Source: an uncultured Acidobacteriota bacterium (GTDB lineage: Bacteria > Acidobacteriota > Vicinamibacteria > Fen-336). Taken from it: a stretch of 64,000 nucleotides of DNA. The notes below the pieces were generated by a model, which worked only from the letters and a program-made list of their open reading frames with translations, made no database searches and was not told the origin of the DNA. The stretch lies in the NCBI GenBank assembly GCA_902826455.1, contig CADEEV010000001.1:1-64000 (forward strand), in the 5' to 3' direction. Below are positions 3,941 to 61,634 of the stretch, one piece after another. Each line of letters begins with the position of its first letter. Within the stretch, counting starts at the first letter, position 1. The position numbers and the translations under genes were made by a program.

Positions 3941-5617
3941 CTATTTCATCCGCGCGCCCTTCTCCTCGGTCGCGAAGACCCAGCCCACGACCTTGCCGGG
4001 CTGGATCAGTCCCTCGGCGCTCCAGAACTGGCGGTCGCGAAGGAAGCGGGACGAGGAGTCGGACGGCGCAATCGACTGGATCTCGGCCTCGATCGCGTCG
4101 AAGCGGGCCTTCCAGCGCTGCATGTTCGCCTCGCGCAGGTCGACCCAGCCGGCCCAGGCCCAGCTCTCGAGGGACTCGGCGGTCACGGCGTGGGAGTCGC
4201 CGGGCGCCGCCACGGGCGGGATCTTGCACTCGGGTCCGCGCAGCAGGCCGCCGTCCGGGAGCAGGATCGGGATCCCGATCGAGACGATCTCGCGTCGCCG
4301 CAGCGGGTCGTCGAGCACCGCGAGGGCGCGCCTCGAGAGCTCCGCGGGCGCCGCCTCGCGCACGGCGGACATGGTGCCGAAGGCGCGCCGCAGCAGGTCG
4401 GCCTCGTGGAGCAGCTTGGAGAGCCGCGGCGGGCCCAGGTTCTCGAAGGCGACGCTGCGCACCTCGTGCTGCTTCTCGAGGTTGCGAAGCTTCTCGAGTG
4501 CCCAGTGCCGCATCAGCCCCGCGCGGTACGTGGGGCCCATGACGGCGTTGTCGAGGGCGTTGATGATGTCGTGGCCGGTGTTGCCGCCGGAGAGCTCGCG
4601 CGCCACCGTGTCGGCGATCTCCTCGGGCGTCACGAACTCCATCTGCTCGCCCGTGGTGATCGCCGAGAACTCCTCGAGGGAGAAGATGCCGTTCTCGCCG
4701 GTGTCGATGAAGACGCTCTTCAGCGTCTCGCCGGTGGCCGTGCCGTGGGCCGGGTCGACCGACCGGAAGCGCCCTCCCGGCGCCACGCGCTCGGGCGTGC
4801 CCGGATCGAACAGGGTCACGGGCCTGCCGGCCCGCAGGATCTCGCCGTAGCCGATGCGCTTCCACGCGATCGCCGCAGCGGGCTTGATCTCCTTGATGAT
4901 CGGGCCGTCGGGCGTGCGCGCCATGAGGAAGAGCAGCAGGGTGTGGGCGCCGGCGAGCGCGCTCTTCGAGAGCAGCACTCGCGAGGGCTTCTCTTCCGAG
5001 TGGGTGTACGGGATGTTGAGGCCCATGCCCCCGGTGCCCGAGGTGCCGATCTTGACGTAGGCCCCGGTGCCCGAGCGCACCATCGACTGGTACAGCACCT
5101 GGACGTGGCGGATCAGCTGCGGCACGTAGTCCGTGACGAGGAGCGTCTCGAGGCTCTCGCGCAGGTCGCGGCCCTCCTTGGCCGCGGTCCAGGCGAGCCG
5201 GCTCGTCTTGTAGATGTCCTGGTACGCGATCCCGGTCGCGGTGTTGACGGCGTCGATGATGATGTCGGGCTTCGCGGTCGCGATGAGCTGGTAGAGGTAG
5301 TATTCGGAGGCGGCCTGCTCCGAGAGGGGATCGAGCAGGCTCTCGATGAGGCGCGCCCGGTTCGCTGGATCGGCGTACACCTCGCGCCGCACCCTGTCTT
5401 TCCAGTCGCCGAAGGCGAACACGTCGCCCCAGGCCGGCTCGAGCGCGACGCCCGCGGCCTCGGAGGAGATGTTGCGCACGGCCTCCTCGGCCTCGTCGCG
5501 TCGCAGCGAGAGCAGGATCAGCTTGGCGGGACGCTCGGGAAGCAGGCGCCGGGCCACCGCCTGGCCGACGAGGCCGTAGCCGCCGAGGATCAGGACCGTC
5601 TTGCCGCGGATGTCCAT
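3941..5617 (-). CDS. Large SDR-like NAD(P)-binding protein (558 aa)
   Basis: The N-terminus carries a classic Rossmann loop, V-L-I-L-G-G-Y-G-L-V-G-Q-A-V-A-R-R-L-L (G-x-x-G-x-x-G), and later A-K-P-D-I-I-I-D-A-V-N-T-A-T-G as in extended short-chain dehydrogenases. At 558 residues it is about twice the usual SDR length; the C-terminal half is not recognised. A catalytic Y-x-x-x-K is not obvious, so the reaction is unknown. The ATG at 5617 starts directly before the Rossmann strand; an in-frame longer version would run through the likely promoter (TAAGAT on the minus strand, 5634-5629). The next gene downstream is the 265-residue hypothetical, probably co-transcribed. Confidence 0.65.
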   Translation of the reverse strand: MDIRGKTVLILGGYGLVGQAVARRLLPERPAKLILLSLRRDEAEEAVRNISSEAAGVALEPAWGDVFAFGDWKDRVRREVYADPANRARLIESLLDPLSEQAASEYYLYQLIATAKPDIIIDAVNTATGIAYQDIYKTSRLAWTAAKEGRDLRESLETLLVTDYVPQLIRHVQVLYQSMVRSGTGAYVKIGTSGTGGMGLNIPYTHSEEKPSRVLLSKSALAGAHTLLLFLMARTPDGPIIKEIKPAAAIAWKRIGYGEILRAGRPVTLFDPGTPERVAPGGRFRSVDPAHGTATGETLKSVFIDTGENGIFSLEEFSAITTGEQMEFVTPEEIADTVARELSGGNTGHDIINALDNAVMGPTYRAGLMRHWALEKLRNLEKQHEVRSVAFENLGPPRLSKLLHEADLLRRAFGTMSAVREAAPAELSRRALAVLDDPLRRREIVSIGIPILLPDGGLLRGPECKIPPVAAPGDSHAVTAESLESWAWAGWVDLREANMQRWKARFDAIEAEIQSIAPSDSSSRFLRDRQFWSAEGLIQPGKVVGWVFATEEKGARMK

Positions 5618-58013: not shown

Positions 58014-58391
58014 CTAGTTCCTCTCCGCCCCGGTGGTCTTGACGCTCGCGACCTTGGCGCTGTCCACGACCGGCGCCGGCGCTTCCACGATGTAGACGTT
58101 CTCCGCGGGCGGTCGCTCGAGGCGCAGGTTGCGGGTCGCGATGGACTCGACCCGCTCGAGGTTCTCGAGGCTGGCCTTCTCGAGGCGCAGCTTCCGGTTC
58201 TCCTCGACGAGGCGATCCCGCTCGCGCTGCATCTGCTCGGTCACGATGCCGGTCTGGCGCATCTCGAGGTGGGGCCAGGCGTAGAGCACCGCGCCGCAGA
58301 CCAGCACCGCGACACCCACGAGCAGGAAGACCAGGTCGCGGTTGGCGCGCGGGTCGCGTTCCCGGACGATCTGGGAGTTGTCGAGCTTCAC
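58014..58391 (-). CDS. ftsL: FtsL-like division protein
   Basis: A 125-residue bitopic protein: 18 cytoplasmic residues, a span at about 19-40, then a periplasmic leucine/heptad coiled coil (about 50-90, M-Q-R-E-R-D-R-L-V-E-E-N) and a short tail. Its place between rsmH and ftsI is the standard ftsL position. It would join FtsQ and FtsB. GTG start overlaps the rsmH stop (GTGA). Confidence 0.85.
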   Translation of the reverse strand: MKLDNSQIVRERDPRANRDLVFLLVGVAVLVCGAVLYAWPHLEMRQTGIVTEQMQRERDRLVEENRKLRLEKASLENLERVESIATRNLRLERPPAENVYIVEAPAPVVDSAKVASVKTTGAERN

Positions 58392-59257
58392 GCGGCCCGC
58401 TCGAGGACCCGCAGCTTCGCGCTGCGCGCCCGGGGATTCCGGCGCACTTCCTCGTCGCCCGGCCGCAGGGCCTTCTTCGTGACGAGGCGGAAGCCTTCCC
58501 GCGCGAGGCCGCGGAAGGCCTGCTTCACCTCGCGGTCCTCGAGGCTGTGGAAGGCGATCACCGCGAAGCGTCCGCCCTGGGCGAGGCAGAGCGCGATGCG
58601 CCGCAGCGCGTCGCCCAGCGCGTCGAGCTCCTGGTTCACGAAGATCCGTAGCGCCTGGAACGTGCGCGTGGCCGGGTCGAGGCCCGGCCGTCCGTGGGCC
58701 GCGCGTCGCACGATCGCGGCGAGCTCGGTCGTGGTCGTGATCTCGCCGCGACGCCGTGCGTCCACGATCGCGCGCGCCACCTGCCGTGACGCGTGCTCTT
58801 CGCCGAAGCGGTAGATCACGTCGGCGAGGTCGCGCTCGCGCATCCGGTTCACGACGTCGGCCGCGGTCTCGCCGCGGCTGCGGTCGAGACGCATGTCGAG
58901 CGGTCCCTCGGCCTGGAAGCTGAACCCGCGCTCGGCCGTGTCGATCTGCACGGAGCTCACGCCGAGATCGAGCAGGATGCCGTCGGCGCGCAGCGCCCCC
59001 AGCACCTCGGGGATGCTGCGGAAGTCGGCGTGGACGAAGCGCACGGCGTCGCCGGCCTGCAGGGCGGCGCGCGCTTCCGCGAGGGTTTCCGCGTCGCGGT
59101 CGAAGGCCACGAGCCGACCGCCCGGGGCGCTGCGGCCGAGGATCGCGCGCGAGTGGCCGCCGAGGCCCAGCGTGCCGTCCACGTAGAGACCTCCGGGCTT
59201 CACCGCGAGGGCCTCCAGGCTTTCCGCGAGCAGTACCGGCTCGTGGCGCGCGCGCAC
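58388..59257 (-). CDS. rsmH: RsmH (MraW), 16S rRNA C1402 N4-methyltransferase
   Basis: The 289-residue methyltransferase begins R-H-E-P-V-L-L-A-E and has the SAM motif Y-V-D-G-T-L-G-L-G-G-H-S-R, the catalytic-region L-L-D-L-G-V-S-S-V-Q-I-D, G-F-S-F and the end-motif F-H-S-L-E-D-R-x-V-K. It methylates C1402 of 16S rRNA. GTG at 59257 is used; an ATG two bases upstream is in another frame. Directly after mraZ. Confidence 0.95.
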   Translation of the reverse strand: MRARHEPVLLAESLEALAVKPGGLYVDGTLGLGGHSRAILGRSAPGGRLVAFDRDAETLAEARAALQAGDAVRFVHADFRSIPEVLGALRADGILLDLGVSSVQIDTAERGFSFQAEGPLDMRLDRSRGETAADVVNRMRERDLADVIYRFGEEHASRQVARAIVDARRRGEITTTTELAAIVRRAAHGRPGLDPATRTFQALRIFVNQELDALGDALRRIALCLAQGGRFAVIAFHSLEDREVKQAFRGLAREGFRLVTKKALRPGDEEVRRNPRARSAKLRVLERAA

Positions 59258-59258
59258 A

Positions 59259-59702
59259 TCAGATCCCGAACTCCGAGAGAGCCTTGCCGTCCTCGTCGGT
59301 GAAGGGCTCCTTCTTGAACAGGCGCTCGTGGAGCCGCTTCTGGTTCCACACCGCGAGCTGGTTCTGCAAGCCGAGGACACTGACTTCGCCCGCCATGGCC
59401 GCGGCTTCGCGCAGCAGGGTCGGGATCAGGATGCGGCCCTGCTTGTCGAGGGTGAGGACCTGGCCGAAGAAATTCACGCGATCGAGGAAGCGCTGCTTCG
59501 ACGGGTTCGCGGAAGGAACCGCCGCGAGCTTGCGCTCGATCTCGAGCCACACCGCCATCGGGTACACGCGCACGTACTCCCCGGTCACGCTGGTGACGAA
59601 GAGCTCGGGTCCGTACTGCGTCTCGACGAGCGAGCGGAACCCGTTCGGGATCTTGAGCCGCCCCTTGTCGTCGACGCGCGCCGGATGGTTACCGCGCAGC
59701 AC
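59259..59702 (-). CDS. mraZ: MraZ, transcriptional regulator of the dcw cluster
   Basis: A 147-residue protein with two AbrB-like swapped-hairpin repeats, marked by V-D-D-K-G-R-L-K-I-P and L-D-K-Q-G-R-I-L-I-P, as in E. coli MraZ. It binds tandem GTGGG-type repeats upstream of itself; such repeats are present (next entry). GTG start with GGGGGAG four bases upstream. It differs clearly in sequence from the second paralogue that precedes it. Confidence 0.93.
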   Translation of the reverse strand: MLRGNHPARVDDKGRLKIPNGFRSLVETQYGPELFVTSVTGEYVRVYPMAVWLEIERKLAAVPSANPSKQRFLDRVNFFGQVLTLDKQGRILIPTLLREAAAMAGEVSVLGLQNQLAVWNQKRLHERLFKKEPFTDEDGKALSEFGI

Positions 59703-59815
59703 TGCTCCCCCGTGGCGATTGCCCGGACAACTTCAGCCCACTTCCGCCCACAAATTTCCACCGGGAGCATAGACCCCTGGTAGGGGGGTGTGTCAAGGCG
59801 AAAATACGGCTACGT
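59703..59815 (-). promoter_or_regulatory. dcw promoter upstream of mraZ
   Basis: On the minus strand TTGACA (59796-59791) and TATGCT (59771-59766) are separated by 19 bases. The predicted start falls within or next to the MraZ box, so MraZ binding would block it. The rest of the gap has GC-rich sequence and no ORF. Confidence 0.6.
59737..59761 (-). promoter_or_regulatory. MraZ box: three GTGGG-type repeats
   Basis: Read on the minus strand: GTGGA, five bases, GTGGG, five bases, GTGGG, starting at a 10-bp period (plus-strand CCCAC at 59737 and 59747, TCCAC at 59757). This is the E. coli MraZ operator layout (TGGG-N5 repeats). Confidence 0.75.
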
Positions 59816-60286
59816 CTAGGGTTTGCCTGTGGACGGAGGGGCGCCGGGGGGGAGCGGCCACCGGACGTCGAGGCTCACGTCGTCGAGGAGCCGGTCCGAG
59901 TCCCGCAGGAAATCGTCCCAGCTCTCGGGTCGCCAGACCTCGAAGCGGTTGAGGACGCCGATCACGACGGCCTCGCGGGTCAGGCCGGTGGCCTGGCGCA
60001 GGCCCGGCGGCAGCAGGATGCGGCCCTGCACGTCCAGCCCGCAATCCACGGCCCTGCTGGCCAGGACGCGGGTGAGGGCCTTGACCTCCCGACTGAAGGC
60101 CGGGAGCTGAGCGAGTTGCGTCTCGAGACGCCCCCATTCGGCAGGCGGGTAAGCCGCGAGGCACTGGTCGAGGACCGTCACCACCAGGTGGCGAGCATCA
60201 GCCTCCTGGAGGTCCTTCCGGAAGGCCGCAGGCACCGGAAGGCGTCCTTTCGGGTCGATACGGTAGCGATAAGTCCCTTTGAACAC
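59816..60286 (-). CDS. Second MraZ paralogue (MraZ-like, 156 aa)
   Basis: The 156-residue protein has the same double swapped-hairpin plan as MraZ: I-D-P-K-G-R-L-P-V-P and L-D-V-Q-G-R-I-L-L-P, preceded by F-K-G-T-Y-R-Y-R. It has a C-terminal extension of about 20 residues rich in Pro. Otherwise it is well diverged from the first MraZ. It is separated from mraZ by a promoter, so it has its own transcript or reads through into the cluster. GTG start; no good ribosome site. Function as a second regulator of the cluster, or of folC divergent to it, is inferred. Confidence 0.85.
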   Translation of the reverse strand: MFKGTYRYRIDPKGRLPVPAAFRKDLQEADARHLVVTVLDQCLAAYPPAEWGRLETQLAQLPAFSREVKALTRVLASRAVDCGLDVQGRILLPPGLRQATGLTREAVVIGVLNRFEVWRPESWDDFLRDSDRLLDDVSLDVRWPLPPGAPPSTGKP

Positions 60287-60356
60287 AGCGAGCTAGGAGT
60301 ATTCCACACTTTCTTCCACTTTTCCACACCCCAGGGATGGACTAGACTTCCGTCGC
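60287..60356. promoter_or_regulatory. Divergent region mraZ2 / folC with TTCCAC repeats
   Basis: TTCCAC occurs at 60302-60307, 60314-60319 and 60322-60327 (minus GTGGAA), 12 and 8 bases apart, a probable MraZ-family operator. TAGACT (60343-60348) lies eight bases before the folC ATG. One regulator could therefore act on both genes. Confidence 0.55.
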
Positions 60357-61634
60357 ATGAGCGCGCCGGGTCTCGCGTATCTCGCGTCACGCGTGCGATT
60401 CGGCATGAAGTTCGGCCTCGGCACGAGCCACGCCCTCGCGGAGTCCCTGGGTCGCCCCGAGCGGGCCTATGCGACCGTGCTCATCGCCGGCACGAACGGA
60501 AAAGGATCGGTCGCGGCGTACGTCGACGCCGTGCTGCGGGCTTCCGGGCTGCGCGTGGGGCGCTACACCTCACCGCACCTGGTGCGGGTCCACGAGCGCA
60601 TCGTGGTCGACGGCCGGGAGATCATGGGCGCGGCCCTCGAGCGCGCCGTGTCCCGGGTGCGCTCGGCCGCGAAGCGCCTGGTGGCGGCACGTCTCATTCC
60701 CGCGCATCCGACGTACTTCGAGGTCCTCACGCTGGCCGCCTTCGACCATTTCCGCCGCGCCCACGTCGACGTGGCGGTCCTCGAGGTCGGGCTCGGGGGC
60801 CGTCTCGACGCGACCAACATCTCGGAGCCGCTGGTGTCCGCCATCGTGAGCATCGATCGCGATCACGAGGCGTACCTGGGGACGACCCTCGCCGCCATCG
60901 CGAAGGAGAAGGCGGGCGTGCTCCGAGCCGGTCGTCCCGTGGTCGTGGGGCCGTTGGCGCGGCCCGCGGCCCTCGCCGTGACCCGGGAGGCGCAGCGCCT
61001 CGGAGCTCGCCTCGTGCCCGCACGACTCGGCGCGCGCGCCTCCGCCGGAGACGGAGACGACGGGCCCTTCGACGTCGTCACGCGCCGGCGTCGCTACGCC
61101 GGCATCGTCGCGCTCCCCGGCCGCCACCAGCGCGACAACGCGCTCGTGGCGATCCGCGTGCTCGAGGAGCTGCGCGACGCCGGTGTCGGCGTCGACCTTC
61201 GGACGGTGCCCCGAGCCCTCGCCGACACGGCGTGGCCGGGACGCCTGCAGCGCCTTCCCGGCGACCTGCTCCTCGACGGCGCCCACAACCCCGCGGGCGC
61301 CCGGGCCCTCGCGATCTATCTGCGCCCGCGCCGGCCGTTCGTCCTGGTCTTCGGAGCCATGAGCGACAAGGCCGTCGGAGCCATGGCGCGCGCCCTGTTC
61401 CCCCTCGCGAGCCACGTGATCCTCACGCGCGCTCCCGGGCGCCGCGCGGCGTCGCCAGGGCAGATCGCGGCTCTCGCCGGCATCCACGGCCGCCGCGCGC
61501 GCCTCGAGCCGTCCCTCGGACGCGCCCTGCGCGTCGCGCGCCGCCTCGCTCCTCCGGGCGCACCGGTCGTGGTCGCCGGCAGCCTCTACCTGATCGGCGC
61601 GGTGCTGGCCTTGCGCAGCAGGTCGCGGAAGTGA
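60357..61634 (+). CDS. folC: FolC, dihydrofolate/folylpolyglutamate synthase
   Basis: The 425-residue Mur-ligase-fold enzyme has the ATP loop A-G-T-N-G-K-G-S (44-51), the S-P-H-L loop, E-V-G-L-G-G-R-L-D-A-T-N and, in the C-terminal domain, L-L-D-G-A-H-N-P-A-G. It adds glutamate to folates and, in most bacteria, makes dihydrofolate from dihydropteroate. ATG start after a TAGACT box with a very short leader. The 3' end overlaps the convergent tlpA-like gene by 49 bases. Confidence 0.93.
   Translation: MSAPGLAYLASRVRFGMKFGLGTSHALAESLGRPERAYATVLIAGTNGKGSVAAYVDAVLRASGLRVGRYTSPHLVRVHERIVVDGREIMGAALERAVSRVRSAAKRLVAARLIPAHPTYFEVLTLAAFDHFRRAHVDVAVLEVGLGGRLDATNISEPLVSAIVSIDRDHEAYLGTTLAAIAKEKAGVLRAGRPVVVGPLARPAALAVTREAQRLGARLVPARLGARASAGDGDDGPFDVVTRRRRYAGIVALPGRHQRDNALVAIRVLEELRDAGVGVDLRTVPRALADTAWPGRLQRLPGDLLLDGAHNPAGARALAIYLRPRRPFVLVFGAMSDKAVGAMARALFPLASHVILTRAPGRRAASPGQIAALAGIHGRRARLEPSLGRALRVARRLAPPGAPVVVAGSLYLIGAVLALRSRSRK

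Follow-up and report, generated by a model that had tools for sequence, protein, structure and literature searches.

Tandem, diverged mraZ genes with differently spaced predicted operators at the head of the dcw cluster in an order of soil Acidobacteria

MraZ is among the most widespread of bacterial regulators, and most bacteria carry one copy. Experimental precedent describes a repressor acting on 10-bp GTG repeats that overlap the transcription start site (PMC7761207, PMC8475190). In B. cenocepacia, binding of MraZ to GTG repeats with a 10-bp period, located after the -10 element and over the transcription start, was demonstrated by EMSA (PMC7761207), while the MraZ boxes of the Mollicutes take the form of AAAGTG[T/G] repeats (PMC8475190). 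In E. coli (NC_000913, b0081) the dcw cluster begins with the gene for an MraZ of two repeats, and three GTGGG boxes at 10/10 bp immediately precede it. Literature searches for a second MraZ yielded nothing relevant.

The window, that is, the whole stretch of 64,000 nucleotides analysed, carries at its end a minus-strand dcw cluster in the order mraZ2, mraZ1, rsmH, ftsL, ftsI, murE, murF, mraY, murD and ftsW, the genes from murE to ftsW being named from ORF translations (Table 1). As is characteristic of the MraZ family, the two mraZ genes stand at the head of the cluster and adjoin rsmH (mraZ2-mraZ1-rsmH-ftsL). This layout recalls that of E. coli, but there one gene is accompanied by one operator, whereas the window locus has two of each, with operator 2 at 8/12 bp. 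Repeat placement at operator 1 is as in PmraBc of B. cenocepacia, although that species has a single MraZ with four regular repeats and no counterpart of operator 2 (PMC7761207). Part of operator 2 is similar to the AAAGTG[T/G] boxes, but M. pneumoniae and other Mollicutes have a single MraZ and a different box register.

Table 1. Coordinates of genes and predicted regulatory features at the mraZ locus of the window
Feature	Position	Strand	Description
folC	60357..61634	+	TIGR01499 340 bits; divergent neighbour of mraZ2
Operator 2 (predicted)	60302..60328	-	TGTGGAAAAGTGGAAGAAAGTGTGGAA; TGTGGAA-N2-GTGG-N7-TGTGGAA, GTGG cores at 8/12 bp
Candidate mraZ2 promoter	60298..60326	-	inside operator 2; TGGAAA (60326-60321), 17 bp, AANACT (60303-60298)
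mraZ2	59816..60286	-	156 aa, GTG start; foreign-type; Pro-rich C-terminal tail
mraZ1 promoter (predicted)	59766..59796	-	TTGACA (59796-59791), TATGCT (59771-59766), 19-bp spacer
Operator 1 (predicted)	59738..59761	-	GTGGAAATTTGTGGGCGGAAGTGG; GTGG triple spaced 10/10 bp, immediately past mraZ1 -10
mraZ1	59259..59702	-	147 aa; native acidobacterial MraZ; stop codon adjoins rsmH start
rsmH (mraW)	58388..59257	-	TIGR00006 316 bits; followed by ftsL (PF04999)

The sequence-only reading had described two MraZ in tandem, each with both swapped-hairpin repeats and of very different sequence. Both points were borne out, and both genes are intact: PF02381 matched each protein as two repeats (105 bits for MraZ2 against a cut-off of 23, and 70.7 bits for MraZ1), and the two were 33% identical over 138 amino acids. 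A search of the genome found no further MraZ. The score of MraZ2 against TIGR00242 was 124.8 bits, above the cut-off of 98.35, and that of MraZ1 was 75.5 bits, below it; all mraZ1-like MraZ of the class matched this model weakly (best E 7e-24). Judged by model score, the more typical MraZ of the pair is MraZ2. It is approximately 37% identical to E. coli MraZ over the matched 79%, and its residues 1-133 matched the structure of M. pneumoniae MraZ (PDB 1n0e, E 1e-12) as well as 9qlr, 9sx6 and 9qlg (about 4e-10). The closest sequences found outside the phylum were the MraZ of Bacillota (Listeria, Bacillus velezensis and Paenibacillus; 41-44% over 123 amino acids), which have in common with MraZ2 an MF-starting N-terminus and the motifs DxKGR and DxQGR, but are encoded by a single gene with 10/10 boxes and lack the Pro-rich C-terminal tail.

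The DxxGR motifs of both proteins were invariant in alignments of the order (D11, G14, R15 with D85, G88, R89 in MraZ2; D11, G14, R15 with D86, G89, R90 in MraZ1), while the C-terminal tail of MraZ2 was variable, Pro-rich and often basic. Identity to the copies in the window was, across the order, 64-85% for MraZ1 and 42-74% for MraZ2. A simple counting method put dN/dS for pairs with any amino-acid change at 0.06-0.25 for mraZ2 and 0.04-0.26 over both genes; each gene is under purifying selection. AlphaFold single-chain models of the two proteins from two-row alignments were of low confidence, with mean pLDDT values of 46 and 53.

A survey for a second MraZ, proposed with the sequence-only reading, found the pair in 16 of 17 genomes of the order, as four MraZ repeats making up two adjacent genes, and retained across two families; the 17th genome, which is 63% complete, had no MraZ match. 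Gene order was folC-mraZ2-mraZ1-rsmH-ftsL in every MraZ-bearing genome of the order within contig reach, with folC beside mraZ2 in 15 of 16, i.e. wherever the contig was long enough. After checking of three-match cases, none of 107 genomes of the same class outside the order had a second MraZ, and in the phylum outside the order a second full MraZ was present in 3 of 294 genomes (G143, G271 and G298, the last 7% contaminated), with a doubtful divergent copy in G212. Other genomes outside the order with three or four MraZ domain matches mostly had weak one-domain matches on other contigs, which were taken as AbrB-like. The mraZ pair thus characterises a whole order, in which it is fixed, and is no peculiarity of a single genome; the expectation that MraZ is nearly always a single gene holds for the phylum outside the order but fails within it, where the pair is the rule.

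The second copy is in tandem in G143, a genome of another class, and on another contig in G271 and G298. In G143 (L052, G143:C51; gene starts at 5289 and 4633, minus strand) a Bacillota-like MraZ lies directly upstream of the native one, as in the window order, but the sequence upstream of the genes has GTGG pairs at 10 bp (and one at 11 bp) without the 8/12 triple. G271 and G298 belong to one family and also have a native MraZ; the extra copies (L054, G271:C16; L055, G298:C182) are very divergent, and about 5 kb around them gave no match to rsmH. Several near-complete genomes of genus g107, family f35 (G156, G209 and G216 among them), had no MraZ match, which looks like a lineage-wide loss.

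The term paralogues, in the sense of a local duplication, did not survive phylogenetic analysis. In a tree of 80 MraZ, mraZ1 branched as the sister of the single-copy MraZ found in the rest of the class; mraZ2 was placed outside the acidobacterial clade. A second tree, to which nine sequences from Bacillota, Actinomycetota and Pseudomonadota were added, placed mraZ2 within a Bacillota/Actinomycetota MraZ group with support of 99/92. The grouping of mraZ1 and mraZ2 as sisters was rejected by the AU test on the extended set (p-AU 0.00035; 0.045 with the smaller outgroup set), ruling out local duplication within the order as the source of the pair. From its position in these trees, mraZ1 is the native MraZ of the order, and mraZ2 is probably an old horizontal acquisition in the ancestor of the order; the outgroups are few (10 sequences) and do not pin down the donor, and the deep branches of so short an alignment (149 columns) are to be read with care. 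The upstream copy of G143 pairs with Subdoligranulum (94/75) and is not sister to mraZ2; by this placement G143 is a separate second case of a Bacillota-like MraZ set upstream of a native copy.

Alternatively, the two genes may be ancient paralogues from a duplication before or early in the Acidobacteriota, with the mraZ2 lineage since lost except in this order and perhaps in G143. Uniting all acidobacterial MraZ, mraZ2 included, in one clade costs just 7.45 log units (p-AU 0.056), and G143, where a Bacillota-like MraZ immediately precedes the native copy, would suit such a history in a second class. It would nevertheless require loss in nearly all of the 294 genomes sampled from the phylum beyond this order, the best tree puts mraZ2 with Bacillota/Actinomycetota, and the upstream copy of G143 does not pair with it; ancient paralogy is considered rather unlikely.

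Operator 1 was the sole exact match to its pattern, both within the window and genome-wide, and its window count was reached in none of 100 shuffles. It has the 10-bp period of known MraZ operators, and a loose NTGG 10/10 triple was present at this position in 16/16 genomes of the order. In all three genomes of the second family (L049-L051) the middle box reads TTGG and not GTGG. The promoter of mraZ1 in the other 15 genomes takes the form TTGACA-17/18-TAGACT or TAGAGT. A location directly after the -10 element is the classical position of a repressor, demonstrated experimentally in B. cenocepacia (PMC7761207). Among 57 other MraZ upstream regions, a GTGG 10/10 triple was found in 32 under strict and 45 under loose matching, and a GTGG triple at 8/12 in none. 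Upstream of Listeria mraZ (L120) the boxes are spaced 10/10/8, so that an 8-bp step also ends a regular array.

Operator 2 occurred as a single copy in the window. Its pattern was found exactly once per genome, with 0 mismatches and always just before mraZ2, in 16/16 genomes of the order, and allowing 2 mismatches revealed no second site in any of the 16. Within the sampled class, exact matches were confined to the 12 genomes of the order, with none among 107 genomes of the other orders; the four 2-mismatch matches elsewhere in the class did not exceed the level of a reversed-pattern control. Positional conservation over the 16 genomes was 0.94 inside operator 2 versus 0.44 in the 40 bp upstream. 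On this pattern of conservation, operator 2 is real and unusual. The claim that each gene has its own operator with distinct spacing was upheld across the order, 8/12 before mraZ2 versus 10/10 before mraZ1, and from the box spacing it is reasonable to suppose that MraZ1 and MraZ2 may differ in binding specificity.

The 8/12 spacing (12/8 on the forward strand) might be a mis-registered 10/10 array. The 16-genome alignment refuted this as regards the GTGG cores, which lie at offsets 2, 10 and 22 and were invariant in 48/48 boxes, so that operator 2 departs from the 10-bp period of GTGG/TGGG boxes in 16/16 genomes; in the GTG register 0/10/20 the first G was present in 10/16 genomes at offset 0 and 12/16 at offset 20. 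TG steps at 10/10 (offsets 1, 11 and 21) were likewise invariant, satisfying a relaxed, TG-only register, and may provide 10-bp contacts. A rival explanation follows this lead and regards operator 2 as a Mollicutes-type 10/10 array, bound by MraZ2 as by any MraZ, the 8/12 appearance arising from TGTGG in the outer boxes. Besides the TG steps, it can draw on two AAAGTG[G/T] boxes 10 bp apart in most copies of operator 2 and on the repeats reported for Mollicutes (PMC8475190). Against it stand the invariant GTGG boxes at 8/12, the inconstant first G and the 10/10 GTGG cores of other acidobacterial operators, which together make it a somewhat improbable account. A leader ORF was also considered, as offsets 0-2 read NTG; by eye, a stop codon follows immediately in L042 (TAA) and in two of the three second-family genomes (TGA), and this candidate was rejected.

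No conserved promoter element was seen upstream of operator 2 in the 16-genome alignment. The candidate mraZ2 promoter would be embedded in the operator itself: positions 2 (A) and 6 (T) of its -10 element were invariant (16/16), although TGGAAA and AANACT are weak matches to consensus. A generic sigma-70 scan of the window called neither the mraZ2 nor the mraZ1 promoter. The distance from the candidate -10 to the start codon was 7 nt in L041 and in the second family, 8 nt in L042 and 11 nt in the rest, and no Shine-Dalgarno-like sequence was evident by eye before mraZ2 in most of the 16 genomes. We infer an mRNA that would be leaderless or nearly so, and the arrangement suggests that mraZ2 is an autorepressed, near-leaderless gene.

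The best explanation, and one held to be rather probable, is that a foreign mraZ2 was gained and kept upstream of native mraZ1-rsmH-ftsL, giving two self-repressing MraZ with two predicted operators. The ancestor of the order would have acquired the gene horizontally, and its descendants would have kept it directly upstream of the native dcw operon. From the sequence, uniqueness and conservation of the operators, we infer that MraZ1 would bind the standard 10/10 GTGG operator overlapping the transcription start and repress its own promoter, while MraZ2 would repress the promoter inside the 8/12 operator, a bound ring covering both -35 and -10. A scan of the window found no terminator-like site in the gap that separates mraZ2 from mraZ1, and so transcription of the dcw operon would start from two promoters in tandem, each controlled by its own MraZ. 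With operators spaced differently, the two ring repressors would be prevented from binding each other's sites in full.

A single copy of operator 2 per genome, before mraZ2 only, would also be expected if mraZ2 were a self-limiting leftover with its own promoter as sole target and the dcw cluster no longer regulated. Purifying selection on mraZ2 and its retention across two families argue otherwise, as does the possibility that, with no terminator-like site intervening, the mraZ2 promoter could read into the operon; this is thought quite unlikely. Mixed MraZ1-MraZ2 rings, or binding of each protein to the other's operator, such that the 8/12 site would reflect the relative amounts of MraZ1 and MraZ2, would be consistent with the DNA-binding repeats kept in each protein, the GTGG core common to both operators and the production of both proteins from one locus. 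Yet the proteins share only a third of their residues and their respective operators conserve different spacings, and cross-wired control of this kind is deemed unlikely.

To return to two self-repressing MraZ, the order would appear to operate with two versions of the regulator, each tuned differently. A tentative extension, put at somewhat less than an even chance, is that the foreign MraZ was built into dcw control and its operator re-spaced from 10/10 to 8/12, insulating two ring repressors with the same box core. The division and cell-wall operon would then receive two separate inputs, with specificity set by spacing and not by base sequence. An order with two diverged MraZ, the same box and different spacing offers a natural experiment in which to learn how the distance between repeats is read by a ring repressor, and what the cell gains from adding a second input to the control of division genes. 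It would also indicate that a regulator of foreign type can be taken in at the start of the dcw cluster, which in this phylum apparently happened on at least two occasions.

In several genomes of the order, a TTTTCGCC-like stretch lies directly before the TTGACA of the mraZ1 promoter. An element like GGCGAAAA...GCGTAAC precedes the single-mraZ promoter, upstream of the -35, in many genomes of the class (L019-L036, other orders). The GGCGAAAA/TTTTCGCC-like element is possibly the site of a further regulator.
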